From the NCBI GenBank assembly GCA_031261065.1, contig JAISKD010000008.1, positions 1 through 64,000 of the forward strand: 64,000 nt of DNA, given 5' to 3'. The notes beneath the pieces are model-generated. The model had not been told where the DNA came from. It ran no database searches and worked only from the letters and a program-made list of their open reading frames with translations. Source of the stretch: Mycoplasmataceae bacterium. GTDB taxonomy: Bacteria > Bacillota_I > Bacilli_A > Mycoplasmatales > Mycoplasmoidaceae. Position 1 is the stretch's first letter; the number at the start of each line of letters is the position of its first letter. Made by a program: the position numbers and the translations under genes. This document shows positions 3,057 through 42,791 of this stretch, one piece after another.

Positions 3057-4352
3057 ATGAAGAAGTTATTAATAACACACGCAACACTTATCTCAGTTGA
3101 CCCTGACAGGAGACAAATAGAGAAAGATACCGATATTCTAATTGAAGATGGTAAGATTACCGAAATTGGAAGTGATATCGTTAGTAAGAATGCTAAAAAA
3201 ATTAATGCAGAAGGTAAAATAGTTATACCGGGTTTAATTAATACTCATACTCATGCTTCAATGTCTTTATTTAAAGAGACATGCGATGGATTAAAACTTC
3301 AGGATTGGCTCAATGACTTCATTTATCCAATCGAAGATAAAATGAAAGATGAGGATTTTTACAATTTTGCTTTGCTTAATTTCATTGAATCTCTTAAGGC
3401 TGGAGTTACAACTATCAATGATATGTACTTTAACACAAAGCATATTGTTAAAGCAAAGAAAAAAGCTCTAATAGATGGTGTAACAACTGTTACATTAATG
3501 GACATAGATGGAAGTGACAAAGGGCAACAAAGAATTGATAATTATTTAGAATTTATAAAACAATTCCCTGATGAAAAAACATCTATTTCAATTCATGGTT
3601 TGTATACTGCTAGTCCTGAATACCTTAAAAAAGTAGTTAAATTATCTGAAAAGATTAACAATAATTTATTTCACATTCATTTTTGTGAAAACTCACAAGA
3701 AGTTCTAGACATCAATAAAAAACACAATGTTAAAAATCCATCTGAAGCATTGGTTAAATATTTTAAAGGAATAAAACCAAAATTAATTCTTGCTCATTGT
3801 GTTAAGTTATCACAAGTTGACGTGCTAAATTTAAAGAAACTTAACGCTTCAATTGCTCATTGTCCAGTTAGTAACGCTAAACTTGGATGTGGCATAGCTG
3901 ATCTTAAAACAATTTCAGCAAATGGTATTAATATAACACTTGGTACAGATGGAGAAGGTTCTGGATGCAATGCCTCTATACTTGATGCTGCTAAACTAGC
4001 TTGTTTGCTTCCTAAAGCTGTTAATGAAGACCCAATGCTATTTTCTGCATATGAGGGATTACAAATGGCTACCATCAATGGTGCTCGAGCACTTGGACTA
4101 GAAGATTCAAAGGGAACTGTTTCTGTAGGAAAAGATGCCGATATTGTAATCGTTAATCCAAAATCTGCACAATTGTTTCCTGTGAATCATCTAATAGCTG
4201 ATATCATTAATAACGCAACTGCTCATGACATAGAGACTGTCATTGTTAATGGTCACATTGCTATTAAAAAAGGAAAACACACACAAGTTAATAAAAAGAA
4301 ACTTTATAAAAAATGTTCAAAATCTATTGAAAAATTATTTAAAACTAACTAA
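3057..4352 (+). CDS. mtaD: Amidohydrolase, 5-methylthioadenosine/S-adenosylhomocysteine deaminase type
   Basis: 431 aa, full length for the family. The metal-dependent amidohydrolase set is complete: NTHTHASMSLFK (HxH, about residue 63), HIHFCEN, LAHCV and GTDGEGSG (metal-binding Asp). The stretch LKLQDWLNDFIYPIED is typical of the MtaD/TrzN/guanine-deaminase branch. MtaD converts SAH or methylthioadenosine to the inosyl product. This would relieve product inhibition of the many SAM-dependent RNA methylases encoded here. Related deaminases with other substrates are hard to exclude by eye. The end overlaps convergent folD by 8 bp. Confidence 0.75.
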   Translation: MKKLLITHATLISVDPDRRQIEKDTDILIEDGKITEIGSDIVSKNAKKINAEGKIVIPGLINTHTHASMSLFKETCDGLKLQDWLNDFIYPIEDKMKDEDFYNFALLNFIESLKAGVTTINDMYFNTKHIVKAKKKALIDGVTTVTLMDIDGSDKGQQRIDNYLEFIKQFPDEKTSISIHGLYTASPEYLKKVVKLSEKINNNLFHIHFCENSQEVLDINKKHNVKNPSEALVKYFKGIKPKLILAHCVKLSQVDVLNLKKLNASIAHCPVSNAKLGCGIADLKTISANGINITLGTDGEGSGCNASILDAAKLACLLPKAVNEDPMLFSAYEGLQMATINGARALGLEDSKGTVSVGKDADIVIVNPKSAQLFPVNHLIADIINNATAHDIETVIVNGHIAIKKGKHTQVNKKKLYKKCSKSIEKLFKTN

Positions 4353-5205
4353 TTTTATTTTGAATTTTACAAACAGTAATTAAGTTCTTCATTAACATAA
4401 CTATTGTCATAGGGCCAACGCCACCAGGAACTGGGGAGATAGAATTAACAATATCTTTGATATTCTCAAAATCTGCTCCTCCGCATAGTTTGTTATTTTC
4501 ATCACGGTCCATATCAACATCAATAACATCCATATGCGAACTGACATAATCCTTTGTTATAAATTTTGCTTGTCCAATAGAAATAATTAAAATATCTGCT
4601 TTAGAACAAACTTCTTTAATATTTTGTGTTTTAGAGTGGCAGATAGTTGGTGTTGCATTTTCTAATAAGAATAAAGCAGCCATAGGTTTTCCAACAATAT
4701 TACTTCTTCCTAAGATTACTACGTTTTTTCCTGCTATTTGAATATCAGATCTCTTTAATAGTTCAATAATACCAGCAGGTGTACACGGTAACAAACCATC
4801 ATACTTATTTTTTGCAGTCCAAAGCTTACCAACATTTTCAAGATGAAAACAATCTACATCTTTAATTGGTGATATATGTTCAATGATTTTGTTTTCATCA
4901 ATATGCTTAGGTAATGGTAATTGAACAAGAATTCCATTAACTGTATCATCTTCATTAAGGTTTTTAATTTCTTGAAGTAAATGTTCTTCAGTAACATCTT
5001 CGTCAAAATGTAATAAAGATGTATTGGCGCCTAACTCATTACTTAACTTAATTTTATTTCTAACATATACGTTGCTCGCTTGGTTATTACCAACTTGAAC
5101 TATCACCAATGTTGGAACAATGTCTTTAGTCTTTAGAAAAACAATCTCTTTCTTAAGTTCTTCTTTTATTTCGGATGAGATTTTTTTTCCATCAATCAAC
5201 TTCAT
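4345..5205 (-). CDS. folD: Bifunctional methylenetetrahydrofolate dehydrogenase / cyclohydrolase
   Basis: 286 aa, the usual FolD length. Visible hallmarks are YVRNKIKLSNELG near residue 50 (catalytic Lys region), GILVQLPLPKHID, DVDCFHLENVGKLW, PCTPAGIIELL, VVILGRSNIVGKP (NADP-binding loop) and the C-terminal SPVPGGVGPMTIVMLMKN. FolD interconverts methylene-THF and formyl-THF, the formyl donor used by Fmt (30134-31072) for initiator tRNA. The ATG at 5205 is preceded by TATAAT (minus strand 5212-5217) with a 6-base gap, so the mRNA is probably leaderless. Convergent with mtaD without a terminator. Confidence 0.95.
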   Translation of the reverse strand: MKLIDGKKISSEIKEELKKEIVFLKTKDIVPTLVIVQVGNNQASNVYVRNKIKLSNELGANTSLLHFDEDVTEEHLLQEIKNLNEDDTVNGILVQLPLPKHIDENKIIEHISPIKDVDCFHLENVGKLWTAKNKYDGLLPCTPAGIIELLKRSDIQIAGKNVVILGRSNIVGKPMAALFLLENATPTICHSKTQNIKEVCSKADILIISIGQAKFITKDYVSSHMDVIDVDMDRDENNKLCGGADFENIKDIVNSISPVPGGVGPMTIVMLMKNLITVCKIQNKIS

Positions 5206-5272
5206 ATAAACATTATATATTCCGAATAAATATCATTAAAGAAAGCTAACAATAGATAAATGACTTTTTATA

Positions 5273-5278
5273 TATAAT
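5273..5278 (+). promoter_or_regulatory. -10 box (TATAAT) of the 5286 gene
   Basis: TATAAT ends 7 bases before the ATG at 5286, so the expected transcript start is at or one base before the start codon. No Shine-Dalgarno is present. A mirror-image TATAAT for folD lies at 5212-5217 on the other strand. Confidence 0.6.
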
Positions 5279-5285
5279 ATAAAAT

Positions 5286-6593
5286 ATGAACTTCTTAGAT
5301 TTCCGTGATTCTTTTATGCCTTATTTGGGCTTAATAATCTTCTTATCACTTAATGCAATGTGAATATTGATTGGCTTTTTTTCACATGCACGTAAAAGCA
5401 TTTACTGATCCGCTGGTAACCTTGTTGGTTTATTTGTTGGTTGATTAGTATTGTTTTTAGCTGGTGGAGGAATAGTTAACTTAATTGTTGATAAAATAGA
5501 TTTAGATGCTTTTGATTTAAAAGATTTTGGAGATGTTTTCTTAGGAATAGTTTCAATTGTTTGGTTCTTTGTATTCACATTATTATGAAACTTAATTATT
5601 TTATTACCTAACTACTATATCTGATATAAAAGAGTTGCTAAAATTAAAAACAGTGTTATTACTGATAAAACAATGAAGGGACGACTTACTGGAACTTTAA
5701 TATCAGTAGTATGTTTCTTGCCGATGTCAACAATCGCTGGTGCCGTAGGATCAGATTTAACTACTTCGCAACATTGTCTTAATGCCAAGAATGCTGGTAA
5801 GTTTGATGAAACACTTTCAACAGTAGGTGGTTCTATTTCTTATGTTAAAGACTCTCGTCAACTTATAGATGCAGCCGCTGCAGTTCTTAAAGTTTACGAA
5901 AAAATTCAGGTTTGAGGAGAGAAAATCAACAATGTAATTTCGACTCCGAAGATGGACGACCCAACAGAAGTGGAAGACTGAATAGACGGTGCTGGTGGCG
6001 AGGATGCAAATTTTATTCAGGATGGTGAAACAAATGACTGATATTTAAGCTGTAATGATTATGTTGGTGGTGAAGATCAAGAAACATCTGGTCGTACCCT
6101 TTCTTCATGAATGTCACAAGCATTTCTTCCAAAGAAAATTACAAACACTGCTGGTACTTTTTTAGGTAAAACGTTTATTCCAGATGATGCTTCAGTTTTT
6201 GAATGACGAAAAATCGATACTTATGAAATTTACACCGATCAAAGTAGCGACCCGCTCCCACTTTTCTCGCTAGAGGGCGAAGGCGACGGAGCGTTCCGCC
6301 AAATTTCTTCTCATGATGAAGGATTACAACTTAATTTTGCCCCAGGTCCTAGTTATAATCTACATGCGTTCAAACCAGCTGGTGATGTTGAGGGAATAAC
6401 TGATTCAGTATGATTACAAGGAAGTTCCGCCAAAAGAATTGCTACCGATCTTTCAAAATATTTATTTAGTGATTATAGCGACTTAGATGCTGATGAAAAA
6501 GCTGGTTGTGCAGAAGCTACTCAATACGATCTCCTACCATTATTCTTTAATTTTGCAGGTCTAAGTGCTAAAGATATCTATAAATGGTTCTAA
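5286..6593 (+). CDS. Polytopic membrane protein with C-terminal domain, CvpA-like N-terminus
   Basis: 435 aa, read through about ten TGA(Trp). Roughly residues 10-35, 42-68, 84-110 and 133-152 are hydrophobic, giving four membrane segments. The Gly-rich stretch NLVGLFVGWLVLFLAGGGIV and the basic segment before the fourth helix recall CvpA-family proteins. About 285 acidic residues follow, with no domain that I recognise. It lies 1 base before tsaB, so it probably heads a transcript with tsaB and rimI. Function is unknown; the CvpA link is a weak inference from layout. Confidence 0.55.
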
Positions 6594-6594
6594 T

Positions 6595-7146
6595 ATGTAT
6601 TTATTCATAGATACATCTCAAACAAAATGCAATTTAGCTTTGTTTGACGAAGGAAAGATTATTGAAAGTTTTTCAGTACCAACGCTTAATAATCTTACCG
6701 ATATGGTAGTGGAGGAAATAGATTCTTTGCTTTCCAAGAATGATATTGACAAACAATCAATCTCGAGAATTTATTTAACAACGGGTCCTGGAAGTTTCAC
6801 CGGTGTTCGGGTTGGCTGTTTAGTAGCGAAAGCATGATCTATTGTTCGCAACATTGAAATATATGCTATTGATTCACTACGCTTACAGGTAGTTGGTGAC
6901 GGTATTTCGCTGCTTGATGCTAGGGGACAAAACTTCTATCACGCGGAGTACAAAGGCGAAACTGTCATTGTAGAACCAGAAATGATACCGAAAGATGAAG
7001 CAGATAAACTAATTGCTTCCAAAGCAAAAAAATTCATTGACTATGAGAATGTTGATATTTTTGATAACCTATTAAAAAGCCTGCAGTTATTTAAGAAAAT
7101 TTCGGTTAGCGATTTAAATCCTCTTTATATCAAAGCGCCTGTTTAA
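6595..7146 (+). CDS. tsaB: tRNA threonylcarbamoyladenosine biosynthesis protein TsaB
   Basis: 183 aa, slightly short for TsaB. The actin/HSP70-like start YLFIDTSQTKCNLALFD and the signature TTGPGSFTGVRVGC are diagnostic. TsaB is the scaffold partner of TsaD in making t6A37 on ANN-decoding tRNAs. No tsaD or tsaC is in this window. The ATG begins one base after the stop of the preceding membrane-protein gene and rimI follows 1 base after the stop, a common tsaB-rimI pairing. One TGA(Trp) follows the glycine motif. Confidence 0.92.
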
Positions 7147-7147
7147 T

Positions 7148-7576
7148 ATGAATATAAGAATAGCAAATATAGAAGATTTAAGTTCAATCGGAAAACTAGA
7201 AGATGAAAATTTTCCATCATACGAACACTATTCCTTTGAACAATTAAAAGAAATGATGAACAATGAAAATTATCAAGTAATAGTATCTGTTGAAGACAAA
7301 AAAGTTATCGGTTATTTAATTATCAATAAAACAGGTGACGATTTCGATTTACAAAAAATATGTGTAGACGTTAAACACAGAAATAAAAAAATGGCCACAA
7401 ACATGTTTAATTTCTTTATTAACTCTCACAAAAACTCTAGAATCTTAATTGAAGTTAGAGAATCAAACTCGTCCGCCCTATCCTTCTATACAAAGCTAGG
7501 TTTTGTTAAAATCATCACTAAGAAAAATTATTATCCTAATGAAGATGCCATTTTAATGGAAAAGAAAGTTTTATAA
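7148..7576 (+). CDS. rimI: GNAT acetyltransferase, RimI-like
   Basis: 142 aa, a single GNAT fold. LQKICVDVKHRNKKMATNMF is the acetyl-CoA binding region, here with K-N-K-K where Q/R-x-x-G-x-G/A is usual. The C-terminal SNSSALSFYTKLGFVKI is the classical GNAT motif B. Its position directly after tsaB supports a RimI-type N-terminal acetyltransferase (ribosomal protein S18 in enteric bacteria; substrate unproven here). The weak pyrophosphate loop is unusual. The stop lies one base from the end of convergent miaB, with no terminator between. Confidence 0.75.
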   Translation: MNIRIANIEDLSSIGKLEDENFPSYEHYSFEQLKEMMNNENYQVIVSVEDKKVIGYLIINKTGDDFDLQKICVDVKHRNKKMATNMFNFFINSHKNSRILIEVRESNSSALSFYTKLGFVKIITKKNYYPNEDAILMEKKVL

Positions 7577-7577
7577 T

Positions 7578-8987
7578 TTATAAAGTTTCACCGTTCAATG
7601 AGAAACGAGATGCCGAAGTTATTTTTATTTTAACAATATCTCCTGGTTTCGCAATACCTTTGAAATTAACGACTTTTCATTCCGGTGAATATCCGAATAA
7701 AATGTTTTTATTCTTTTTTGAAGCTCCTTCAACGAGTACGTCAATAGTTCTTCCTATAAATTTTTTACAATTTTCCCAAGCATATTTTTTTACTAGCTTA
7801 TTCAAAGCTTCTAATCTCTTCTCTTTAGTGGCAAGAGGAATCTTGTCTTCAATCAATGCTGCAGGAGTTCCCTCTCTTTTAGAATAAATAAAAGTATATG
7901 CATTATCAAACTTATTTTTTTCATAGAGTTTAATTGTATTTTGAAATTGTTCATCAGTTTCATTAGGAAAACCAACAATTAAATCTGTTGATATAGCACA
8001 ATCAGGAATACGACTTCTAATGTATTCAACTAAATCAATATAATCTTCAATCTTCATGTGTCTATTCATTTTCGCCAATATAGTTTCATCCCCTGATTGT
8101 ATTGGTAAATGCACATAAGGCATAATGTTTTCATATTTAGCAATAACATCAACCAATGACTTAGGAAAGTTTCATGGGTTAGATGTTGCGAATCGTACAC
8201 GTTCAATGCCAGTTTTAGCAACATTCTCTAAGAGCTGTTCAAAATTAACGTCGCCATCATTATATGAGTTTACATTTTGTCCAATTAATGTAACTTCTTT
8301 ATAATTAGCATCACGTAACATCTTAATTTCATTAATGATATCTTCTTGTTTTCTGCTACGAAGCTTTCCTCTTGTATAAGGAACAATGCAATAAGAACAG
8401 AATTTATCACAGCCATATGTAATGTTAACAAATGCTTTGATAGTGCTGTTTCTTACACTTGGTAAGTTTTCAACAATTTCACCAACATATGAATTAACCC
8501 TTATACAAGTTTCGTTACTACTCTTAATTTCATTTAATATCTCAGGCAATTCATATATGTTGTGTGTGCCAAAAGCAAAGTCAATATATTGAATCTTATC
8601 AATTATTTTCTTAATAACACTTTCTTCTTGCGCCATACAACCACATATTCCAAATTTAAAATTATGGTTGCTTTTTTTCATTCTCTTAAGAAATCCTATT
8701 TCCCCGAAAACCTTTAGTTCTGCATTTTCTCTAATAGCACATGTATTAAGGATGACAAGATCAGAATCCTCTATTGTTTCAGCAGGTTTGTATCCAAGAC
8801 TTTCTAGAATACCTGCAATAGTTTCACTATCTCTCACATTTGCTTGACACCCATAGGTACGAATAAAATATTTAAGATTGTCTCCTAGATGTTGATATAA
8901 AGGATTTATATCAAAGACGTTATCACGTATTGAAACTTTATCCAATCTTTTTCTAGCATCAATAGTATTCGGTAATTTCTTTTCCAT
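7578..8987 (-). CDS. miaB: tRNA-2-methylthio-N6-dimethylallyladenosine synthase
   Basis: 469 aa with TGA(Trp) inside. It has the three MiaB parts: the N-terminal UPF0004 domain with three Cys (YGCQANVRDSE, LNTCAIRENAE, GICGCMAQE), the radical-SAM CxxxCxxC (GCDKFCSYCIVPYTRG), and a C-terminal TRAM domain (about the last 65 aa). It methylthiolates i6A37 in tRNAs reading UNN codons. The paralogue MtaB is at 19355-20674, so two methylthiotransferases occur in one window. A 9-bp inverted repeat lies just upstream of its likely -10 (TATATA near 9004-9009). Confidence 0.95.
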
Positions 8988-9010
8988 GTTTAGTTTATGT
9001 TTTATATATA

Positions 9011-9044
9011 GTAGAACAGAAGATTAAATTTTTAACTGTTCTAC
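9011..9044. repeat. Inverted repeat upstream of miaB
   Basis: GTAGAACAG (9011-9019) and CTGTTCTAC (9036-9044) are perfect 9-bp inverted arms with a 16-base A/T loop. It lies between the stop of the small membrane-protein gene and the probable -10 of miaB. It could be a weak terminator for the former or an operator over the miaB -35 region. There is no poly-T tract on the minus strand after it, which argues against a strong terminator. Confidence 0.55.
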
Positions 9045-9101
9045 ACTAAAAGATCTTTATTTAGTTTTTGAAAGACTTTTAAGAACGTATATAGATTAAA
9101 C

Positions 9102-9404
9102 CTATTTAATTGGTTCTGATTCTACGGCGTTAATATATTTCTTTGCTTCGTGTTTAGCTAATAAATATAAGATAGGTGTAATTACCGCAGATAAAGCTGT
9201 TCCAACGATTAATCCTTTTTCTGAACCAGTAAGGGCTTTAGCTGTGTGTAAATCCTCATCAACTATAGCTGTTACGATTAAAGCTACTGTTAAAAATAAA
9301 CATAATGCAGCGAACACATACAAACATATCGTAATAGCTAGATAATGATTTTTGTGTTCGTGTATTTTAAAATTTGATTTTGGTTGGTTTGATATATCGG
9401 CCAT
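9102..9404 (-). CDS. Small two-helix membrane protein
   Basis: 100 aa, family not recognised. The N-terminus is basic and hydrophilic (about 20 aa). A first hydrophobic segment spans about residues 22-48 (LAITICLYVFAALCLFLTVA). A second, about residues 66-84, reads LIVGTALSAVITPILYLLA, with a basic end. The ATG is preceded by TATAAT (minus 9412-9417) with a 7-base gap, so it is probably leaderless and expressed alone or with miaB downstream. Confidence 0.7.
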   Translation of the reverse strand: MADISNQPKSNFKIHEHKNHYLAITICLYVFAALCLFLTVALIVTAIVDEDLHTAKALTGSEKGLIVGTALSAVITPILYLLAKHEAKKYINAVESEPIK

Positions 9405-9513
9405 ACTTTATATTATATCTATTTTAATAAAAACATATTACTGTGATTATGGTATTTATGAATAAAGATTATTAAAACATAACCTTTTAACTTCTAAAAT
9501 CACGCGATTATTG

Positions 9514-9519
9514 TATAAT
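9514..9519 (+). promoter_or_regulatory. -10 box of the tRNA-Asn-Glu-Val cluster
   Basis: TATAAT ends 10 bases before the first base of tRNA-Asn. It is the only obvious promoter for the three tightly packed tRNA genes. No clear TTGACA-type -35 is seen. Confidence 0.6.
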
Positions 9520-9529
9520 TATTAAGAGT

Positions 9530-9604
9530 GGTCACATAGCTCAGCGGTAGAGCAACCGGCTGTTAACCGGTTGGTCGTAGGTTCAATCCCTACTGTGACC
9601 GCCA
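9530..9604 (+). tRNA. tRNA-Asn (GUU)
   Basis: 75 nt with encoded CCA. The acceptor GGTCACA pairs with TGTGACC. The anticodon stem ACCGG/CCGGT carries loop CTGTTAA, anticodon GTT. First of a three-tRNA plus-strand cluster. Confidence 0.95.
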
Positions 9605-9607
9605 TAT

Positions 9608-9684
9608 GGCCCGTTGGTGAAGCGACTTAACACACACGGTTTTCATCCGTGGATTCATGGGTCTGAATCCCGTACGGGTCGCCA
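9608..9684 (+). tRNA. tRNA-Glu (UUC)
   Basis: 77 nt with encoded CCA. The acceptor is GGCCCGT/ACGGGTC. The anticodon stem CACGG/CCGTG has loop TTTTCAT, anticodon TTC. It begins 3 bases after tRNA-Asn. It is the standard Glu tRNA that reads GAA and GAG by wobble, so the CUC species at 2493 is an extra. Confidence 0.95.
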
Positions 9685-9686
9685 TT

Positions 9687-9762
9687 GCGGTGTTAGCTCA
9701 GCCGGGAGAGCATTTGCCTTACAAGCAAGAGGTCGGGGGTTCGAGCCCCTCACACCGCACCA
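9687..9762 (+). tRNA. tRNA-Val (UAC)
   Basis: 76 nt with encoded CCA. The acceptor is GCGGTGT/ACACCGC. The anticodon stem TTTGC/GCAAG has loop CTTACAA, anticodon TAC. It starts 2 bases after tRNA-Glu and is the last gene of the cluster. Confidence 0.95.
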
Positions 9763-9768
9763 TTATTG

Positions 9769-9811
9769 AAAATAAAAGTCTTGTCCTTTGTCGGGACAGG
9801 ACTTTTATTTT
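9769..9811. terminator. Strong bidirectional terminator hairpin
   Basis: AAAATAAAAGTC-TTGTCC (9769-9786) pairs over 18 bases, with one G-T wobble, with GGACAGGAC-TTTTATTTT (9794-9811), around a 7-base loop. A/T arms flank a GC core, so it gives a U-run in both directions. It ends the plus-strand tRNA cluster and covers the last codons and stop of the convergent hydrolase gene. Confidence 0.9.
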
Positions 9812-10689
9812 ATCTTACTTACATAGTCATCTATCAATTTATATAGTTCGTCGTTCTGTGGTTCTTCCATACCAAGAACATGTCAACCTTTTTCCATATA
9901 TTTTAAGTGTGGTGAATTCTTATTCTTGTTATAGAATTTATTTCAATACTTCATTGTTTGCATTCTATCTTCGCCAGATTGAATATATAGAAAATTTAAA
10001 TCGCTGTTATTTACATTTTTATTAAGTATTTTCCAAGACTTAGGGAATGTTCATCATGCAGCACAAGTAACTTTGTTATTACCTGGTTTACCGGCGGTTG
10101 CAAGGTTAACCATTCTGACAAGGAAAGTATTGCTTGATAATTGAGCTGGTACACCTTTTGAAGGTATTCTATCCCAAGTTTGTGCAGATGTTAGAATTGT
10201 TCAGCTCATCTTAAAACCAGCAATAGTCTTATATTTAAAGTTGCTATTACCTACGTCCTTAACATATCGTGGCATGTTTCATGCAAATAGTCCGTTTATT
10301 TTTTTAGGATTTTTATAATAATAAATCATTCCTAAAGCTGCACCCCATGATTCGCCTAATAAAAAGATTCTTTTCTTAGGGAACATCTTTTTAATCTCAT
10401 CGATCACATAACCCAATTCCTTAACGTATTGGTTAGGCATATGGCTAGCAACATTTTTATTTTCTCCATGAGCCATTTTTTCATAAGTTATAAGATATTT
10501 ACCATCGTAGAAATTATGATTCATGATATCTACGAATGGTATGTTTCCTCCATGACCTTGGATGAATAAAAAAATATCCGCCTCTTCTTTATTAACTACG
10601 GGTTCATATATTGCAATGGGTGTTGGGTGTTTAAATTTACCAAGTTTTATGTTGACTATTTTTTTACGTTCGTCTTGAAATTTCTTCAT
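9805..10689 (-). CDS. Alpha/beta-hydrolase, lysophospholipase / monoacylglycerol lipase type
   Basis: 294 aa, read through several TGA(Trp). The nucleophile elbow is LLGESWGAA (Ser near residue 115). A likely acid is in IQSGEDRMQT and the His in GWHVLGM near the C-terminus, giving a full Ser-Asp-His set. An oxyanion-type FIQGHGGN is near residue 45. Mollicutes use such enzymes to break down host or own glycerolipids; the substrate here is not known. No signal peptide, so it is probably cytoplasmic. The stop of the YbhN-type gene directly abuts its ATG, so both are co-transcribed and may act on lipids together. Confidence 0.8.
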
Positions 10690-11844
10690 CTATTTTATTA
10701 TGTACTTTTTAATTGCTTTGCATATATAAAAAATAAGAAAATAAGACAGTCCTATAAATAATGGAATGTATGTTGTGAAGAAACGTCAAATTGTAATTCC
10801 ATTTTTTGTAAACTCTTTAATTTCTCTGTGGTCATTTATACCGCTTATTCCATAACCAGAACTAAATAATGAACTCATCATTCATTGAATTAGTCCTTCT
10901 TCTCCTGGAACAGGCATAAACTTTGTTGCAGTGTTTGATACATTGGAAACATCAAAGACCTTTATGAAAGAAATACTAATACTTTCATCGGCCTTAACTA
11001 ATTCTAAACCACCAGCTAGTAAAGAATATGTGCATATTTCTCAACAAGCATATGCACCTATTACAAACAATGTAATCTTTCAATCCTTGAATAATAATTC
11101 CTTAAATTTATTTTTTATTACTTTATCTTCAAGATATTTCTTTCTTGTTTCTGCTGATGTGCTGTAAGATAAATGCATAATTTTCTTAATCTTATTAGAA
11201 AGTAAAGATATTCATAAATGGATATGGACTGAGAACCCAACAACGAATAAGAAGACAAGAATTACTCAGTCCATAACTATACCACCAACTATGAATCAAT
11301 AACCTACTTCAACCTGACTTGTAAATTCTATATCTTTTGTATAGACTATGTGGTAGGTTATTGTTATAAATGATGATAATGAAATAATCATTTGAATAAG
11401 TTGTCACAATAGAGTATCGACTAATGTTTGTGCTGCAGCTTCAGGAGTTGTAAATCCTCTCTTTTTTAATCACCATATTGTATATGGGGAAGTAATAAAG
11501 TTTGCTGGTGTAAAAGGTATAAGCACAAACATAGTCATCGCAAATATGATCCGGTCTTTAGTTGATATATAAATACCTGCCTTTTTTGCTCTGACGGTGT
11601 AAAGTCAAGATAATATAAAATACTTTAGACCAACATACAAAAGAAATGAAATTATTATGAAGGACGAACGAGTAGCATTTAATTTGACAGCATCTGACAT
11701 GCTGCCAAATAATGTACTTAGGTGAATATGTAGAATAGTCGTAAAACTAAGCACTATTAAAGCGATTGAGATACACGCACCAAAAATAATCAATAAAATT
11801 CGTTTTCGATTCAGAAAATTATTCTCAACCTTTGAATTTATCAT
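10690..11844 (-). CDS. YbhN / lysylphosphatidylglycerol-synthase transmembrane family protein
   Basis: 384 aa with about eight hydrophobic segments and many TGA(Trp). FVPVPGEEGLIQWM near residue 310 fits the family signature P-x-P-G-G-x-G-x-x-E. TPANFITSPYTIWWLKKRGF near residue 115 fits the other conserved block of the LPG-synthase membrane region (UPF0104). Such proteins move or flip lipids; the soluble aminoacyl-transfer domain of MprF is absent. It is followed directly by a lysophospholipase-like gene, which suggests membrane lipid turnover. Long for a membrane protein of this genome, with no signs of decay. Confidence 0.75.
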
Positions 11845-11875
11845 ACTAAATATATTTTAACTTACTTTACAAACT

Positions 11876-11881
11876 TATAAT
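11876..11881 (+). promoter_or_regulatory. -10 box of the 11888 GNAT gene
   Basis: TATAAT ends exactly 6 bases before the ATG at 11888. With normal -10 to +1 spacing the transcript starts at the A of the start codon. Confidence 0.65.
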
Positions 11882-11887
11882 ATAACT

Positions 11888-12328
11888 ATGGAAATAAAAG
11901 AAATAATTTTAGACGAAACTCACAAAGCTGCACTTAATGATATTTGATATAAGTCAGCAAAACATACTCATAACTTTTTATCAACTGCAGATTTTGAAGC
12001 TATTGCTCCAAGAGTTAAATCTATCCTTCAAGGTAAAGAAACAGCTATTTTAGTTTATGAACAAAATAAAATTATTGCTTTTTCTACAATTAAAGCAAAA
12101 CACATTGAATCAATATTCGTTTTACCTGAATATATTCGTCAAGGTATTGGATCAAAAATTGTTGAATATGCAAAACAAAAACATGAAGTTGAAACAGTAG
12201 ATGTTAATAAGCAAAATGAAAATGCAATTAACTTTTATAAAAAACATGGCTTCGTTATTTCTGGTGAAACTGATAAGGATGCATTCGGAAAAGGTTACCC
12301 AATCCTTCACTTACATTTAAAGAAATAA
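11888..12328 (+). CDS. GNAT family N-acetyltransferase
   Basis: 146 aa. IESIFVLPEYIRQGIGSKIVEYA contains the full acetyl-CoA loop (R-Q-G-I-G-S). NKQNENAINFYKKHGF is the standard C-terminal GNAT motif. The closest general type is the YjaB/PhnO-like small-molecule or protein acetyltransferase group; the substrate is unknown. Probably leaderless. A Nudix gene follows after 2 bases, so the two are co-transcribed. Confidence 0.85.
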
Positions 12329-12330
12329 AA

Positions 12331-12873
12331 ATGGCGGGTGCTGATAAATTAAACGAAACGCTACGTGTTCTAAATAGAAACGGAGAGTGAACTGGACGAG
12401 TTGAATCGCGTCAAACCATTCACGCTAAAAGATTGTTCTATGCTAATGCAAAGGTTTGAATTTTGGATATGTCTACCAAATCAGTCTTATTACAAAAGCG
12501 AAGTATCAATAAATTAAATAACCCAGGTAAATGAGCTTTAACTGGTGGTCATATATATAGACACGACACACCTATGCAAACAGCAATTTCTGAAGTCATA
12601 GAAGAATTAGGAATTAAAATAAATGATGCTAATTTTAAATTTGTTATGATTTTGCCCCCACTAAATGGTCATTCTTTTTCATATCAGTTTGTTTATCTAG
12701 CGGATAAAAAAATTAGCAAATTTAACTTGCAAAAAGAAGAAGTAGATACTGTTGAATATTTTAAATTCTCAGATTTAAAAAACGATATGAAAAAACATGA
12801 ACGAGATTATGCAATGAATTATGCGCGATATGAGCCTATGCTTTTGGAAATTGAAAAAATATTTAAGAACTAG
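12331..12873 (+). CDS. Nudix hydrolase
   Basis: 180 aa. The Nudix box is GGHIYRHDTPMQTAISEVIEELGI (positions about 79-102). It fits GX5EX7REUXEEXGU with Thr-Pro in the spacer and S-E-V for the R-E-U part; the metal-binding EE is kept. The N-terminal SRQTIHAKRLFYANAKVWIL resembles the Idi/YfcD-like Nudix layout. It probably removes diphosphate from a nucleotide or sugar-nucleotide; the substrate cannot be read. The TAG stop overlaps the stop of convergent yqeK in a shared CTAG. Confidence 0.85.
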
Positions 12874-13370
12874 TCCTCAAAGGATGATTGGATTTCTCCT
12901 ATCACTCTTTTAAATGCTAGATCTAGGTCCACCTTAGCTAAAGCTATTAGGTTTGTTCTATTTGTAAAAGGTACCAATCGTCCTGGTTCAAGTTTATCAG
13001 CGATGAAAACTATCTTACCCATCTTTGATATATTTTTTGGTGGTATTACATGATCTTTAATTGAACGCAATATATTAGAATCATTAATCTTAAAGTTATT
13101 CCTAATGTATGCGGCACCTGCTAACCCATGCATTGTTTTAATATTAGGAAAATGATCTGTGTTATTATCGCCTACTAATTGCAATATCTTTCATTCTTCA
13201 AATTCTTTTGCAATATCATGGTACATTCCAGCCAGTCAAGCCTTTTCAGGATTAATTTTATTAGCAATAGCAATAGCTTTTGCTAAATCAGCTACCCTAA
13301 GTGAATGGTTGTATCTTTTCGCGGATACTAGATTTTTCACTCTTTTCTTTGCTATTTCCTCTATATCCAT
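12870..13370 (-). CDS. yqeK: HD-domain nucleotide phosphohydrolase YqeK
   Basis: 166 aa. RYNHSLRVADLAKAIA (H), GMYHDIAKEF (HD), HGLAGAAYIRNNF (H) and FIADKLEPGR (D) are the HD metal ligands in the YqeK order. YqeK proteins hydrolyse diadenosine tetraphosphate symmetrically. In many Firmicutes and Mollicutes yqeK is next to or fused with nadD, which is not seen here. The ATG overlaps the parC stop (TAATG), so it is translated after parC. Confidence 0.88.
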
Positions 13371-15841
13371 TATTCAAAGAACCCCTCTTTTTCTTCTACT
13401 ATAGGTTCTTCCTGTTTATCCTCTTCATTCTCTTTTGATAATGAATTAATTGTATTAATCTTTAATATGTGTTTTCCTTTTAATAGACTCACTCGTGTGT
13501 CTATGTCACCAATAGAAATTTGTGAAGCATTTATAACTTCTCACTTATTGGAAGAGTCTAATACTGAAATCTTGTCAGAATTACTAACGGCAAAAGCATT
13601 TATTACAAATAAAGGGTTTGTTTTACTTTGGAGAACAACAGATTTAGGTTGATTTGTTCTTTTGCCGATAGTTATTGAAGATGTTTTTATTCTCTTGGCA
13701 CCTTGTTCACACGCTATAACGACATATTCTTTTGATGATTCATTTAGAAAAATAGCGGCAATTGAATCATTATCTTTTAAATTTAAGTTCTTTACACCGC
13801 TTCCATTTTTACCAATAACAGGTATCTGGTCAATAGGATAAGCAATTGCGTTTCCGTCCTTTGTTACTACTGAAACATTTGTCTCTACTTTATCAGAGCT
13901 TGCTAAAGCAGCAGAAATTAAACGATCATTTTCATCCAATGTCATTACATTTGATACTTTAGGTAACTTAGCAATGCCTAAATCTTTAACTCTTGTTCTT
14001 TTAATTTGTCCATTTTTAGATGCAAGGACCAATGTTCTGCAATCTTCTACATTGTTTTCAAAATTAAAAGCATAGACTATCTTTTCATCAGATGAAAGTG
14101 GAACGATATTATTAACATGTTCGCCAACATCCTTTCATGCACATTCATCAATTTTATAAGTAGGTAATGAAACATAGTTACCCTTAGAAGTAATAAGAAT
14201 TACTTTATCGCGTTGGTTTGAATAAAATTGACCAATTGGTGCATCACCATCTTTTAATTTTAAATCATGGTATTCACTTGCACCAAAACTGCGTTTAGAA
14301 ATATTTTTAACATAACCGTCATTGGTTACAACAATTATATTTTCACGATTTTCTATCGTGTCTTGATGTTCAACAACGATTGTTCCGTTTTCATCGCCAA
14401 TAACAGAACGTCTTGGGTGAGCAAAAATTTTCTTGTATTCTCTTAATTTACTTTTAATATTATTTTGACGGTATATTTTATCGTTTATTAAAAGATTTAA
14501 TTCTGTTATGCTAGCCTCAAGTTCTTTAGCTTCTTCTTTAAGACCTTCAACATCAGCGTTTGACAGTCTATAAAGTCTTAAGTTGACAATTGCATCTGCT
14601 TGAGCTTCGCTGAAAATAAATTTAGTAATTAGATTTTGTTTAGCAGATGCTTTATCACTTGAGTGTCTAATAACATCAATAACATCATCAAGAATTTTGA
14701 TTGCTTTAATTAAACCTTCAACAATTTCTTTTCTTATTTTAGCTTTATTAAGATCATAAACAGAAGTTGAAACAATAATTCCATTAATGTGTTCAATAAA
14801 TGAATCTAACGCTTCAATAATTGGCATTAAGCATGGTTTATGATCTTTGATTGCAATTGTATTGATGGCATATGAAATTTGTAATTGTGTGTTCTTATAA
14901 ATAAAGTTTTTAACAAATTCAAAGTTCTTTCCATCTTTAAGGTCAATTGCAATTGAAATTCCATTCTTATCTGATTCATCTCTTACTTCTTTTATGTTTA
15001 AAACAGGATTGTCTTCAGCTAATTCATTAATCTGTCTTATAATCATCGATTTATTTGTTTCATAAGGAATAGATGTTATATATGCTTGTTTAGATGATTT
15101 TAAATCCAGATTACCTCTAATGCTTATTTTTCCCTTGCCTGTTTCGTATGCACTATTAATTCCATCGCGGCCTAAGATTATTCCGCCTGTAGGGAAATCA
15201 GGTCCAGGCATTACCTTTAGAATAGATGATAACCTGCAATCAGGTGAATCTATACGTGTGATGACCGCATCAATAACTTCACAAGGATTGTATGGAGGAA
15301 TATTGGTTGCATAACCAGCTGCAATTCCTGAAGCACCATTTATTAATAAATTTGGAAGTAAACTAGGTAGAACTGATGGTTCTTGTTCACAATCATCAAA
15401 GTTATTAACGAAAGGCACGCAATCCTTGGCGATGTTTTGAATCATGAGTTGTCCAAATTGAGAAAGTCTACATTCTGTGTAACGCATAGCCGCTGCTCCA
15501 TCTCCGTCAATAGAACCATTGTTACCATGCATATCTATCAATGGAATGTTATTCTTTCAATCTTGTGACATACGAACCATTGCATCGTAAATAGAAGTAT
15601 CACCATGTGGGTGATACTTTCCAATAACTTCTCCAACAGTTCTTGCTGATTTTTTATGTTGCTTATCATAAAACAGCTGCAATGAATTCATTGCATAGAT
15701 AATTCTCCTTTGAACTGGTTTTAATCCGTCTCTAATATCTGGTAATGCACGATCTTGGATAATGTATTTAGCATACCTTCCAAATGAATCAGACATTATA
15801 TCCTCAATCGGTTTTAGGTGGATCGATTTAATATCAGACAT
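13370..15841 (-). CDS. parC: DNA topoisomerase IV subunit A
   Basis: 823 aa. Breakage-reunion domain: [16 protein letters not shown], then [20 protein letters not shown] and [20 protein letters not shown], with the catalytic Tyr in the last. QRR (not HRR) and SQDWK...MHGNNG favour ParC over GyrA. The C-terminal beta-pinwheel lacks a clear GyrA box and ends in a Glu/Lys-rich tail ([17 protein letters not shown]-like). At the position equal to E. coli ParC Ser80 it has Thr, and at Glu84 Asp. parE is not next to it: the upstream neighbour is a divergent GNAT gene. ATG preceded by TATAAT (minus 15851-15856). Confidence 0.93.
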
Positions 15842-21385: not shown

Positions 21386-22312
21386 ATGGTGGCTCCTAAA
21401 CAAAATAACTATCTGCAGCACGTTTCGTCTATTTTGTCTGCTGTGACAACTGTTTTTCTTGCATTAGCAGCACCGCTTTTTTTTGCTTCTAGTTTTTTAG
21501 AAAGGTTTGCAAGCGATGGGAGTGACATATGAGTTCTGTCCGCTTTTGGGCTTGAAACAAAATTGCATATAGTTTGTATCTGCCTTCTAGGTGCCGCGGT
21601 TATTACAGGCACTTGAGCAAAAACATTGAAATCAACGTCAAGTTTAAAAAATACCAATACTATCACTAAAATCATTGTCTCCCAAATATTATTTATTTTA
21701 GGAATTGCCTTTGTTATTTCCGAAGTTTATGCAACTTCTTCTGGATCTCCGCTTAATCCTGACACAAGGCTAGTATTTGGAATCATTGCTTCAGTTTTTC
21801 TTTTTCTTTCGTTTTTAATATTCTCACGTTGGATAGCTTCTATATTTGCTATAACGCAAATAGTTTGTATCTCTATTCTTTGAGGCCTAGTGCCGCGTGA
21901 AACAAGCGTTCATAAATTTTGTCTTGAGCTTGGCTGACTTAATTTACTAACAGGCGCATCAGTAATTTTCTTCTTTATTTTATTAGATATAGTATTGAAA
22001 CAAGGAAGCAAAAATAAAGACAGATCTTTATATAGAGAGGGACTTGTAATTGTAAGAATTTTCCTGCCCTTATTCATTTTGCTTTATACTATGACAGCCG
22101 CATCTGGTGCACAACAATTTTTTAAAGCCTCAATCTCAGACTTCACCCCTTCATTATTTGACGGAGCTTTTTCTGAATATACCCATTTAGATTCAGGAAT
22201 TTTTCTAACATTCGTTATTATTGGCGAAGCACTAATTGCAGCAAGCAATATTTCACATAAAAAAATAGACAACGATTCCACAAACAATCTTTCTAAAACT
22301 GGACAGTCTTAA
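21386..22312 (+). CDS. Polytopic membrane protein, tandem paralogue 1
   Basis: 308 aa, with about eight hydrophobic segments and several TGA(Trp). No recognised domain. It is clearly homologous along its length to the next gene. Shared blocks are ASSF-E-FA-G, L-ETKLHI-CI-LLGAA-I-GTWA and KQGSKNKD-SLY-G...LPLF...YT. Unlike the neighbour it ends in a longer Asn/Asp-rich tail. Preceded by TATAAT at 21369-21374, 11 bases before the ATG; an ATG also occurs 8 bases earlier in another frame. Confidence 0.7.
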
Positions 22313-22359
22313 AAAGATTGTTTTGCGTTGATTAAAACCTTATATAATAAATATAACTT

Positions 22360-23334
22360 ATGGGTGCCTCTAAACAAAATAACCTTCGTAATATATCGCA
22401 AATAATTTTGATTGTTGTGACAATCGTTTCTCTTGCAGCGTCAGCCTTGCTATTTTTCGCTTCTAGTTTTATAGAAAAGTTTGCAGATGGTACAAATGGC
22501 ACACGAGTTTTGTCTTCTCTAGGAATTGAAACAAAATTGCATATAGCTTGTATTTATCTCCTAGGTGCTGCAATTATTGCTGGCACTTGAGCAAATTTTT
22601 TAAAATCATCATTAGGTTTTAAAAACATCATTACGATTACCTTGATCATTATCTCCCAAGGGTCACTTATTTTAGGGATTGCCTTCGCTAATGCTGAAGT
22701 TTATCCTATTTCTTCGACATCTCCCGCTGATACTGATGCTAAACTAGCGTACGCAATTATTACTTCAACTCTTCTTTTTGTTGCTTTTTTAATTCTTCTT
22801 ATAGTTAGTGCTAAATATTTTAAAAGTAAAACATTGAAATGTCTTGCACTGGTTATCGTTTTAGCTGCTGCGCAAATCGCTTCTGCTTGTATTCTTTGAG
22901 GCATACTGCCACATGCTACGGGTTCCAAGATACCAGCTCTTTTGTTTGGTGTATTGAATTTAACTATATGTGCGTCAGTTATTGCGTTCTTTAGTTTATT
23001 CAACACGGTAATAAAACAAGGAAGCAAAAATAAAGATGGTTCATTATATAAATCAGGAAGTGTAATCGGAAAAATTTGCTTGCCTTTATTCGTTGTATGT
23101 TATACTATAACAGCAATAACTGGGGCAGTACCATTTTTTATGCTTGCATTAGCATCTGCCACCCCTCCATCATACATTGGTGATATTTCCGATTGAGCCC
23201 ATTTAATTTCAGGAATTTGTCTAGCAGGTGTCATTGCTGGCGAAGCATTAGCTGCATCAAGTGATATTTTTCATAAGAAACAAACAAATAAAGTGGGTGT
23301 ACAAAATACTAAACAAACAACAGATACAAAATAA
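22360..23334 (+). CDS. Polytopic membrane protein, tandem paralogue 2
   Basis: 324 aa, a diverged copy of the preceding gene with the same order of about eight hydrophobic segments. It keeps its own promoter: TATATAATAAATAT (TATAAT 22343-22348), 11 bases before the ATG, the same spacing as copy 1. So promoter and gene were duplicated together. The C-terminus is a short hydrophilic tail with repeated Lys-Gln-Thr. It is followed by a strong terminator. Function unknown; host-surface or transport roles are both possible. Confidence 0.7.
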
Positions 23335-35082: not shown

Positions 35083-35929
35083 TATAAGAGTATTGTTCGT
35101 TTAATCATTTTCTATCGGCTTCTGTCATTACTGGTGAAATACCTTTAGTGATATATGTTTCATATCATTTTGTAGCGTAGTCGATATATGTCTTAAAGCT
35201 TTCAAGATCTAAATCTATTTTAACTATTCTCATTTCTCTGTTATTGATGTCAAAATTTTCTGGGTGTGCATAATCTTCCAATTTAAGAAAACCAACACAC
35301 AAACAAGCTTTTGTAGTGTGACGTAAATATAAATATAATCCAACTTGAAATTTATAGTCTTCAGGAATTTTAACATCATTTCCCTCAAATCAAGTTTCTC
35401 TCTTTTTACCCTCTCCGCCTGCTTTAGCTTTTGGCACACCGTCACTATTAAGCACCATAGACATATTACCTTTTTCGAATCTATATTGTATTGTATCAAT
35501 TGATGATGTTTTTATTTCAAGAAGCATTCTGTCATTCGAATAATCAACCGCTCCTTCTTCGTTTACTGGCTCTCCATCAGGTATTCCGCCGAATACTTTG
35601 TTGTCTTTAAACATATCAAATTTACATTTCACGGGGTCGTAGCTGATATATTTTTGTCCTAGTTTTTGCTCAACATAATCTCTGATTTTAGGTTCGATTA
35701 TATTTCCAGCATCCGCAAGGGTTTTATCCATTGTATCCTTGTATAAATTGACCATTCCCATTCAGCAAACAAAAGGAGAGGTATATTTACTTTTCCCAAG
35801 AATAGCTGCAAAACGTGTTCCTGTGATTTTTTTGAAACGGAATGACATTTTTTTAATGTATTCTGGTGACAAAACTATTTGGTCATTTTTAATTGTTGAT
35901 TCTTTACAATGTTCTTTTTCTAAGGGCAT
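35075..35929 (-). CDS. Putative YqaJ-like nuclease, MAGa7180 type
   Basis: 284 aa, read through three TGA(Trp). ITGTRFAAILGKSKYTSPF at the N-terminus is the recombinase-nuclease start (S/T-x-x-x-x-x-L-G-x-S). Then NIIEPKIRDYVE (Glu), FGGIPDGEPV (Asp) and MLLEIKTSS (E-x-K) follow in order, as in PD-(D/E)xK YqaJ/lambda-exonuclease enzymes. The tail has KFQVGLYLYL-type residues. Some Mollicutes carry a family of this layout (MAGa7180 family). Role (repair, nutrient nucleic acid use, or phage remnant) is not known. The minus-strand -10 TATAAT (35936-35941) ends 6 bases before its ATG. Confidence 0.7.
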
Positions 35930-35943
35930 AATTAAATTATATG
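35927..35943. promoter_or_regulatory. Interlocked divergent starts (nuclease / YwaF-like)
   Basis: Only 11 bp separate the two ATGs (minus 35929, plus 35941). The minus-strand TATAAT is at 35936-35941 and takes in the A of the plus-strand ATG. The best plus-strand -10, CATAAT at 35927-35932, covers the minus-strand start codon. Each gene's start codon lies within the other gene's -10. Confidence 0.6.
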
Positions 35944-39338: not shown

Positions 39339-41003
39339 CTAAAGACTGTTATATTCGGTGTTGAAATATCAACCAGAATCTCAACTAACGTCAATGTCGG
39401 TCCCAGCGCCTATTCCATTTCCGAGATCATGTATTCCATTAGTGAGTGAATCACTATATTTCGCATTAGCTAAAGAACACGATGGTAAATAAATTGTTTT
39501 CATTGAGTGAGTTATTTTATCGAAACCTCTCATAACTATTCAAGCCTGAGAATAATCTGTTATTCCTTGAGAATCAACATATGAGTAATAGTCTGCTTCA
39601 GCATTATCATTGTGTCCATTTTCCGGTGCATTTCTAACATAATAGTCAACATATATTGGAGTAGCAACACCGTTATCATTGGTTTGCGTAAATCAAACTT
39701 CATCTTTACTACCGTTTGCCTCCACATTCAATATATCAGGGCCCCTTAACATATACCCCTCTCCTTGCGGCATATAATAATCAGTGGATTCTGGATATCA
39801 CCCTAAATTAAAAGGAGTAACCAAATTAGATCCATGCCCGGAACTTGAACCACTGAATCAACTAGATGGGTCTATATCGTTTCGTAAATAGAAAGAGGCG
39901 TCATCGAATCTACAAGACGTTTCTCTTGTAGTGTCTGGGAAGAAAGGAGCAGCTGGATCATCATATGTCTCTTCTTGACTTCAGCAATGTTCCTTATCAT
40001 GCAATCAAAAACCAGGTATTGCATCCGTAGATAATTGGGCATCACCTGTGCTAACAACACTTGCAACACTTCTATTTATATCTAGATACATCATTTGTTT
40101 AAATGAATCGATCTTAACAAAGCCATTGCCAGCATCACTAGTATTTTTACAGAACGTATCAATATAGTCATTGAAAGAAGTATCGCCATCATGAAGTATT
40201 GGACCCGCGTCTACTGGGAAAGTGGTTTTTTTAAGAGCATCGGCTCATTCTTGGTTATCCCAATAATTAGAATAAGCAGTTATGTAATCATTTGCATCTC
40301 CAATATTATCGTAATCTACACTATCATATAAGCTTTCTTCATCGAGTGTAGTTGGAATCACTCTAAGATTATAAGTATCATAAAGATCAGAAGCATATGT
40401 CAATGATGTTGGGAAAAGATCTGAAGGAGTAGTTGGAGAAATTTGGAAATCTCACTTGTCTGCTATATAAATGTAGTTGAAATCAGCGGCACTTCCTTCG
40501 AAATTATACATGATACCGTCAACATCAATATAACCATTTCGTAGATCATAATCAGAAGTAAGTCATTTAGTTGATCAAAAACGTACCTCTATTTGTCCAG
40601 CTTGTTTCTTTATAATGGCATCTGCAAAGCTACCAATCATATCAAAATAAATTTGGTCTCCATCATTATAAATCTTATTATTATTAGCTTGGTTAACAGT
40701 TATATCTTTTGTACCAAAATTAGCATATCTTGGAACATATGTGTGATCTAACCTAGGTTTTACGAAATCAAAAATAGTTTTAGCATTTTTACTTGTTATA
40801 GTAACGGAGTCTCCTGCTCTTATATGGTATGGTTCGTTCTTAGTTGATTGTTCAACTAATGCGCATATACCAGGAGTTGCTGCAGCAACTACGCAAACAC
40901 CAAAGAAAGCATATTTTCATCACGCTTTTGATTGATGAACAACCTGTCGTGAAGTGGTATGTCCTTTTTTTGTTTTTGAAGCTTCTTTTTTAAATTTCGC
41001 CAT
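39339..41003 (-). CDS. Membrane-anchored surface protein, unknown
   Basis: 554 aa, read through about fifteen TGA(Trp), so it is invisible with the standard code. A basic cytoplasmic start (about 30 aa) is followed by one hydrophobic segment (WWKYAFFGVCVVAAATPGICAL). There is no lipobox Cys right after it, so it is probably an uncleaved anchor with the rest outside. The ectodomain is rich in Asp, Tyr, Ser, Asn and Trp. No domain seen. It shares a palindromic promoter with the divergent lipoprotein gene. Confidence 0.7.
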
Positions 41004-41005
41004 AT

Positions 41006-41021
41006 TTGTATTATAATACAA
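41006..41021. promoter_or_regulatory. Palindromic divergent promoter TTGTATTATAATACAA
   Basis: A perfect 16-bp palindrome fills most of the 20-bp gap between two surface-protein ATGs (41003 minus, 41024 plus). It contains TATAAT on both strands (plus 41012-41017, minus 41010-41015), each ending exactly 6 bases before its own ATG. The two -10 boxes share 4 bp. Confidence 0.75.
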
Positions 41022-41023
41022 TT

Positions 41024-42634
41024 ATGAAATTTAAGAAAATATTATTGCTGTTCTCACCATTAATAGTGGCAAGTGCTGCTTTTCCGCTTCTAACATCATG
41101 TTCAAATGCTGATAAAGCAATTAGCATTAGTACTGAATATGAAAACCCAACTTTATCGGCGAGAGGTGACGGAATAATAATGACTGCAAATGTTGCAAAT
41201 GGTTATGCTCATGCCATATCATGAAATGTTAATGCTATTACCAATGTTTTTGGTAAAGATAATGTAACAGTCACTATTATTACCAAAAACATTTTCAATG
41301 ATACGTGTAGAGTTGAAATACAAAAAGGTTACTCTTATAAAGCTAGTACAGTTAAAGTTTATGCAACAAATGGTGAATCTACTGGTAATTGTTCTATTAG
41401 ACTTTCTCCAACTTCTGAATATTATGAAGAATTTTCAATTGACCAAAGTTTTGCCCCAGAGTATTATTTCGAACATTTACAAAATGTTACCCACGAAGAA
41501 TTGTTACCTACAGAATTGAAAAATCAAGATTGTGTTTCATGAAGCAATTGATTAATGGACAAATATCTTGCATCTGGTAGATATCAAACTGAACACATAT
41601 GAACATATTTGGAGTTTGGTATGAATTATTTGTTAACCGGATTAGCTCAACAGCGATTCAGTCGTTCACCGGACGGCACTTTAACTGGTTCAGTTACGCT
41701 TTCACAAGCAGATGACGGTTCAGGTACGTGATTGTTTAGTTATAACGTTGATATCCCGTCGTCTAGTAAAAAAGCAGTGCATTCAACAAATCTAACAGCA
41801 GCACGGAATGACCCTACAGCTAGTCACGGTTGTAATATGATTTTTATGCCGCCACTTTTGACGGATAGCAGCTTTCTTGCTGGAAGTCTTACTGATAAAA
41901 CATCCTGCGCTTTTCTTGCTAGTCTTTTACCATACTACAGCAATTGTGATTACACTAAACGTTCGGTTGAAAAAGTTTCTTCTAACTGACAATCAAGTGG
42001 AGATGAGGTTATCGGCATCTCTCCAAGAGCATCGATTCCGGTTACACAAGAATATACTCCATATAAGGACTTCTTCTATGGAGCAAAGGACGATCTCCCT
42101 ACAGCAACACAGATTAATGTACATGATCAAACAAACTTAAATCTTGCTGATAAAGATGATATGTATATGAGAAACATTGACTCACCTTTTATCGATGGTG
42201 CTAGTGAATTAGCCAATCTTACTGCCGTCTCTACTCTCTCCACCCTTAAAATTAGAGAATTGAAGATAAATCATGAAACTGAAGCATTAAATTATTATTT
42301 TGATTTGTCCACTAGATTCTCTTCAAATTATTTATTCGGGACCGCTAAGAATGTTCAGACCGTTATTGACCTTGTTGATATACAACAATGGAGCACCCAT
42401 GATGATTTAAGATTCAAAACGCGTCCATGAATATTCTTTAGTAGTATATATGTTGATAGAGTTTATGATAATGATGGCCATATGACTATGTTTGTATCAT
42501 ACGACCTTAGCAGAGAATCTAATTTTACATTAGCTGAAGCCATAGACCAATCTTATCCATCAAATTCGCCTTATGGTGAACCAAGTACAGGGACATTTAT
42601 GAGAGGATTCCAATGAACGGGTGATCTCGCATAG
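41024..42634 (+). CDS. Surface lipoprotein
   Basis: 536 aa, several TGA(Trp). It starts MKFKKILLLFSPLIVASAAF and has PLLTSC as a lipobox (Cys near residue 26). The ectodomain is Ser/Thr/Asp/Tyr-rich with no domain recognised. A region near residues 45-95 (Ile/Val/Thr alternation, YATNGESTGNCSIR) could be an Ig-like beta-sandwich. It is divergent from another surface protein of similar size, and both are probably leaderless. Confidence 0.8.
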
Positions 42635-42707
42635 GTAACCCCCTAATCAATTGTTTACTTTAATAACCTATAGACAATAAATTTACAACATTTTTTTAAA
42701 ACTTATA

Positions 42708-42713
42708 TATAAT
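42708..42713 (+). promoter_or_regulatory. -10 box of rpoBC
   Basis: TATAAT within ACTTATATATAATATAA. Transcription should begin near 42720, leaving an untranslated leader of about 72 nt before the rpoB ATG. Confidence 0.65.
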
Positions 42714-42731
42714 ATAACTAACACATCCTTC

Positions 42732-42790
42732 TTAGATACATACATTCCTTGCAAATGTGTGCGTTCGATGTATTAATATTTCTTATCTAA
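42732..42790 (+). ncRNA. Structured leader of rpoB
   Basis: Nested complementary pieces: TTAGATA (42732-42738) with TATCTAA (42784-42790), ATACAT (42736-42741) with ATGTAT (42768-42773), and ACATT (42742-42746) with AATGT (42754-42758). The outer arm ends one base before the rpoB ATG, so the fold would hold the start region. The first two pairings overlap at 42736-42738 and compete, so two alternative folds are possible. Confidence 0.5.
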
Positions 42791-42791
42791 A

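Follow-up and report, generated by a model that had tools for sequence, protein, structure and literature searches.

Bidirectional promoters of bacteria are defined by divergent transcription starts that lie 7-25 bp apart, 18 bp being the usual and optimal separation, and they draw on -10 elements that are inherently near-symmetric (PMC10268837). At five such promoters of E. coli, basal transcription was too low for the two directions to compete; competition arose once transcription in one direction had been strongly increased, and cell-to-cell noise then fell (PMC12825309). A second body of work concerns leaderless genes, for which a TA signal about 12 bp upstream of the start codon is on record for Mycoplasma (PMC3160421), and start-site mapping in Mycoplasma gallisepticum places TATAAT 6 nt from the transcription start, rarely 5 or 7 (PMC4245973). 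The window analysed here, a stretch of 64,000 nucleotides from a Mycoplasmataceae genome, contains a 20-bp gap between two divergent genes at which both arrangements appear to meet. As judged from its sequence, this site is probably a bidirectional promoter of the sigma-70 type that serves the two genes and leaves both of their mRNAs leaderless.

Direct reading places the start codon of the minus-strand gene (as CAT) at 41001-41003 and the ATG of the plus-strand gene at 41024-41026, and the features between them are collected in Table 1. The first-pass annotation had described a 16-bp palindrome within the 20-bp gap, with two TATAAT boxes that share 4 bp and each stand 6 bases from their own ATG, and this description is exact to the base. 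The shared bases are TATA at 41012-41015, so that the -10 elements overlap reciprocally, as those of bidirectional promoters do, within a ATTATAAT core at 41010-41017. On each strand the box lies about 12 bp upstream of the start codon with no Shine-Dalgarno sequence, which is the arrangement of TA-led leaderless genes, and no GGAG-type motif was found before either ATG at the gap. There is a T at -18 on each strand; an extended -10 (TGn) is absent from both strands of the gap and the -35 matches there are weak. The starts predicted from sequence rather than mapped, 41003 and 41024, are 21 bp apart, which is a caveat to the bidirectional reading given the 18-bp optimum of other bacteria. In-frame TTG codons inside the palindrome would also open both reading frames. 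If these were used the -10 boxes would fall inside coding sequence, and for the plus-strand gene the TTG is disfavoured because the lipoprotein signal begins at the ATG.

Table 1. Features of the divergent gap and its two genes, with a related double site elsewhere in the same genome
Feature	Position	Strand	Basis or remark
554-aa protein with N-terminal membrane anchor (predicted; code 4)	39339..41003	-	ORF translation
20-bp intergenic gap ATTTGTATTATAATACAATT, the entire predicted bidirectional promoter core	41004..41023	.	sequence and gene starts
Perfect self-complementary palindrome TTGTATTATAATACAA	41006..41021	.	sequence
TATAAT -10 box of the minus-strand gene, 6 nt upstream of its ATG	41010..41015	-	predicted +1 at 41003
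TATAAT -10 box of the plus-strand gene, 6 nt upstream of its ATG	41012..41017	+	predicted +1 is the A at 41024
Predicted lipoprotein of 536 aa (code 4) with signal MKFKKILLLFSPLIVASAAFPLLTSC, lipobox ...LLTSC	41024..42634	+	ORF translation
Gap-22 double site between HisS and a 1132-aa surface-like protein	contig 6 of the same genome, 7626-7653		core ATTATATAAT

Both reading frames are broken under translation table 11 and run to 554 and 536 aa under table 4, and the organism appears from its sequence to read TGA as tryptophan. The sizes, the membrane anchor and the lipobox signal, the latter two being predictions, agree with the anchored protein and lipoprotein named in the earlier annotation. 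Pfam and PDB searches with both proteins gave no credible match, the lipoprotein having no Pfam match above the cut-off. The lipoprotein has no homologue among the 35 other genomes of the genus, the anchored protein has distant homologues in two of these 35, its own genome also encodes a distant paralogue of it on contig 5, and the pairing of the two genes is not kept in relatives. One of the homologues of the anchored protein (in G033) is preceded by a TATAAT 20 nt upstream and a GGAG motif, that is, it is arranged with a leader. Downstream, the intergenic stretch that separates the lipoprotein gene from rpoB (42635-42791) contains its own TATATAATATAA, and rpoBC therefore need not rely on the shared promoter. 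A search with RpoB placed the organism, its closest named record being a Mycoplasmataceae MAG at 54% identity. Within the lipoprotein reading frame, at 41243-41293, there is an inverted repeat with 22-nt arms that are 86% complementary and a 7-nt loop, a possible mRNA hairpin.

This genome habitually uses the 6-nt spacing. The pattern TATAAT-N6-ATG has 113 matches in it, against 16 for the reversed control, and of 357 first-ATG gene starts in 445 kb of sampled sequence, 50 have TATAAT at spacer 6, one has it at spacer 5 and 8-10 have it at each of spacers 7-9. Only 39 of the 357 genes carry a Shine-Dalgarno-like motif. The spacer-6 genes of the genome have a T at -1 in 88% of cases and show no clear -35 signal. 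The sampled stretches L116, L170 and L181 were picked for holding sites, and the counts of gaps given below are for this reason drawn from whole-genome pattern searches and not from the sample. Given that the 6-nt spacing of the genome matches the start rule of M. gallisepticum (PMC4245973), both mRNAs are expected to be leaderless, and we infer that transcription of both genes begins at the A of the ATG. Enrichment of the leaderless signal over control is seen in this genome and in only part of the genus: TATAAT-N6-ATG usage varies widely, from 15 matches against 25 control matches in G010 and 11 against 8 in G014 to 130 against 20 in G009, and this variation possibly reflects a recent shift of initiation habit. 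A different spacing is seen elsewhere in the window, at 21386-23334, where two adjacent paralogues of 308 and 324 aa (50% identical) have near-identical upstream stretches in which the distance from TATAAT to ATG is 11 nt.

The length of the gap follows from the letters of the box. When the permitted overlaps of two perfect TATAAT hexamers on opposite strands were worked out by hand, the overlapping letters were found to agree only at start-to-start distances of 21 bp (gap 20, sharing TATA), 23 bp (gap 22, sharing TA) and, with the boxes crossed, 15 bp (gap 14). With TATAAT-N6-ATG on both sides, uncrossed perfect boxes are thus possible at a gap of 20 bp (four bases shared), 22 bp (two shared) or at least 24 bp, and two perfect boxes cannot coexist at a start spacing of 18 bp. 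The 20-bp gap is the tightest uncrossed arrangement, for which eight fixed bases suffice, and compaction explains it, since the 6-nt rule and perfect boxes together permit no tighter uncrossed gap. In 36 genomes of the genus, perfect double sites occur nine times at a gap of 20 bp, three times at 22 bp, never at 24 bp, twice at 26 bp and once at 30 bp, with all controls at 0. One member of the genus, G009, carries several of these sites. No instance of the crossed 14-bp geometry, CAT-N2-TATAATTATA-N2-ATG, came up in 1.4 Mb of sampled sequence. A further divergent pair that is very tightly packed lies at 35929-35941 of the window, with a gap of 11 bp if the ATG at 35929 is the start codon of the minus-strand gene; the TATAAT 6 nt upstream of that gene overlaps the ATG of the plus-strand gene at 35941.

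The nine sites with the layout CAT-N6-ATTATAAT-N6-ATG stand against none for the reversed pattern in the 36 genomes, which argues that the promoter geometry at the gap is not due to chance. In 262 other genomes of the order the layout was counted 13 times against 9 for the control, which is near background, and the clear excess therefore lies in the genus. Seven of the nine sites lie between two reading frames of at least 59 aa, the exceptions being one whose left reading frame has eight codons (G008) and one at a contig end (G032). When products were assigned by Pfam, the pairs beside that of the window's anchored protein and lipoprotein were ribosomal protein S21 and a ferredoxin; an amidohydrolase and an alpha-beta hydrolase; an LspA (signal peptidase II)-TsaB-like product and a membrane protein; a glycosyltransferase and methionyl-tRNA formyltransferase (Fmt); an alpha-beta hydrolase and a pyridine nucleotide-disulphide oxidoreductase; and a DUF31 peptidase lipoprotein and YmdB. 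Of the 22-bp sites, one (Table 1) is in the window's own genome, one separates ribosomal protein L14 from inorganic pyrophosphatase and one lies between two reading frames with no Pfam match. The genes at the other double sites are thus mostly housekeeping genes, unrelated to one another and often essential, and because essential genes would hardly be placed under an either/or switch the layout has the look of a compact promoter for general use, not of a surface device.

Given that -10 elements are near-symmetric by nature, it is conceivable that the promoter drives one gene and that this symmetry incidentally produced the TATAAT on the other strand. However, this is unlikely for two reasons: symmetry alone gives no exact 6-nt spacing to the ATG of a long reading frame on the second strand, and it does not account for the recurrence of the double pattern in the genus against an empty control. 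That an AT-rich gap simply happens to fit two consensus boxes, with the genes transcribed from elsewhere, agrees with the AT-richness of the genome and with palindromes of 16 bp not being rare, but is most improbable in view of the reversed controls for both the double and the single geometry and of the sharp peak of spacer 6 at gene starts. The palindrome itself raises a further alternative, in which a dimeric repressor bound to TTGTATTATAATACAA would silence both genes jointly, and the perfect dyad does sit exactly across both -10 boxes. As such, a palindrome of this length is ordinary, since perfect palindromes of at least 16 bp number 4 in the window, close to the 2.6 +/- 1.6 of Markov simulations (24 occur in 445 kb of the genome). 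The earlier annotation had proposed a search of related genomes for conservation of the palindrome, and this speaks the other way: the 16-mer is present in 0 of 59 relatives, the outer palindrome is not kept at the other double sites, and only the ATTATAAT core recurs. The arms are symmetric at five of six positions in the window and at 29% on average at the eight other gap-20 sites. Among pairs of independent leaderless spacers from the same genome, at least five of six positions agree in 6.6% and a run of at least four from the box occurs in 2.6%, so that one such symmetry over nine sites is unsurprising and the outer arms are, on the sequence comparison, probably coincidental. With arms that differ between sites in a manner compatible with chance, and with one copy of the 16-mer in the genome, a shared operator is disfavoured and must be considered very unlikely.

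The first-pass annotation had gone on to propose that polymerase cannot use both boxes at once and that expression of the two surface proteins could consequently be either/or in individual cells, as a surface-variation device. The former part is upheld to the extent that the overlap of the boxes would allow one orientation at a time; the step from there to an either/or switch is unsupported. It is true that the overlap rules out simultaneous occupancy, that both products are predicted to look surface-exposed and that both genes are orphan or fast-evolving. Against this, the layout and its 22-bp counterpart recur in sister genomes between unrelated housekeeping genes, for which reason the shared promoter is probably no surface-variation switch, and no memory or repeat element is seen at the gap. 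Between 39000 and 43000 there are no tandem or direct repeats, and the gap has no inverted repeat other than the palindrome, so that none of the DNA switch elements by which phase variation is recognised at promoters (a repeat tract, or invertible or recombining repeats) was found. A stochastic simulation in which occupancy was exclusive, feedback absent and the rates assumed, which is an illustration and not a measurement, gave weak or no anticorrelation in four parameter sets (0 to -0.16 for mRNA, about 0 to -0.3 for protein) and at no time point a protein ratio of 9:1, and would therefore yield no exclusive cells. In E. coli, too, the two directions do not compete at basal activity, and where they do compete noise falls (PMC12825309). 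Some competition between the two consensus boxes, whose occupancy is perhaps higher than that of the E. coli promoters, is possible, but a switch between exclusive states is extremely unlikely, and the site does not establish a new mode of surface variation. On contig 3 of the same genome (L098), four tandem lipoprotein genes that are 77-86% identical lie at 5787-13913, every one of them preceded by a TATAAT-N6-ATG promoter of its own and a similar AT-rich upstream stretch, and this array is a likelier seat of recombinational surface variation than the gap at 41004-41023. A second tandem family on that contig, at 3832-5583, comprises three short membrane proteins (63-74% identical) whose similar upstream sequences end in TATAAAATAGACTT-ATG or close to it.

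If the site is a bidirectional promoter, the holoenzyme would bind singly and in either orientation, every initiation firing in one direction, and both mRNAs would lack a 5' UTR as well as a Shine-Dalgarno sequence. Since each initiation would take one direction or the other, both genes would be expressed across the life of a cell, with a mean ratio governed by weak flanking contacts. Without feedback, a shared promoter of this kind predicts co-expression and not two cell types. This raises the more tentative possibility, which is rather doubtful at present, that the 20-bp layout is a favoured module of the genus, being the smallest uncrossed region with two consensus boxes, that it could have arisen repeatedly because a symmetric -10 can yield a second start, and that the choice of orientation would couple the two outputs. 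Should the starts map as predicted, the gap would be a minimal promoter, serving two genes with 20 bp and with no UTR, Shine-Dalgarno sequence or obvious -35 element, and would bring together leaderless genes and bidirectional promoters, each documented separately, in a combination that a search of the open literature did not turn up as judged by title and abstract. The site also offers a natural test of the strength of competition between two perfect overlapping boxes.

In comparison with known systems, the gap resembles the bidirectional promoters of Warman and Grainger (PMC10268837, PMC12825309), where -10 elements overlap on opposite strands and one polymerase at a time gives divergent RNAs, as is predicted here, and it shares with them a predicted start separation within 7-25 bp and a T at -18 on both strands. 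It differs from them in that both boxes are perfect TATAAT with four bases in common, in the 21-bp separation in place of the 18-bp optimum, and in that both predicted starts coincide with start codons, leaving no UTR on either side. Like the TA-led genes, including those of Mycoplasma (PMC3160421), it has its TATAAT boxes some 12 bp ahead of the start codons and no Shine-Dalgarno sequence; that survey classed genes singly and the word 'divergent' is absent from it, whereas here two leaderless genes stand back to back on what is in effect one box. Similarly, the -10-adjacent reading frames of Deinococcus-Thermus (PMC12340547) have a box that abuts the reading frame and a leaderless mRNA, the latter being a prediction here, and divergent or bidirectional use is unmentioned in that paper. 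Mycoplasma surface-antigen systems such as vlhA of M. synoviae likewise concern surface proteins of a mollicute; vlhA varies through recombination into a single expressed locus (PMC2825196), whereas at this gap, where two genes would share one compact promoter, no repeat or recombination site is seen.
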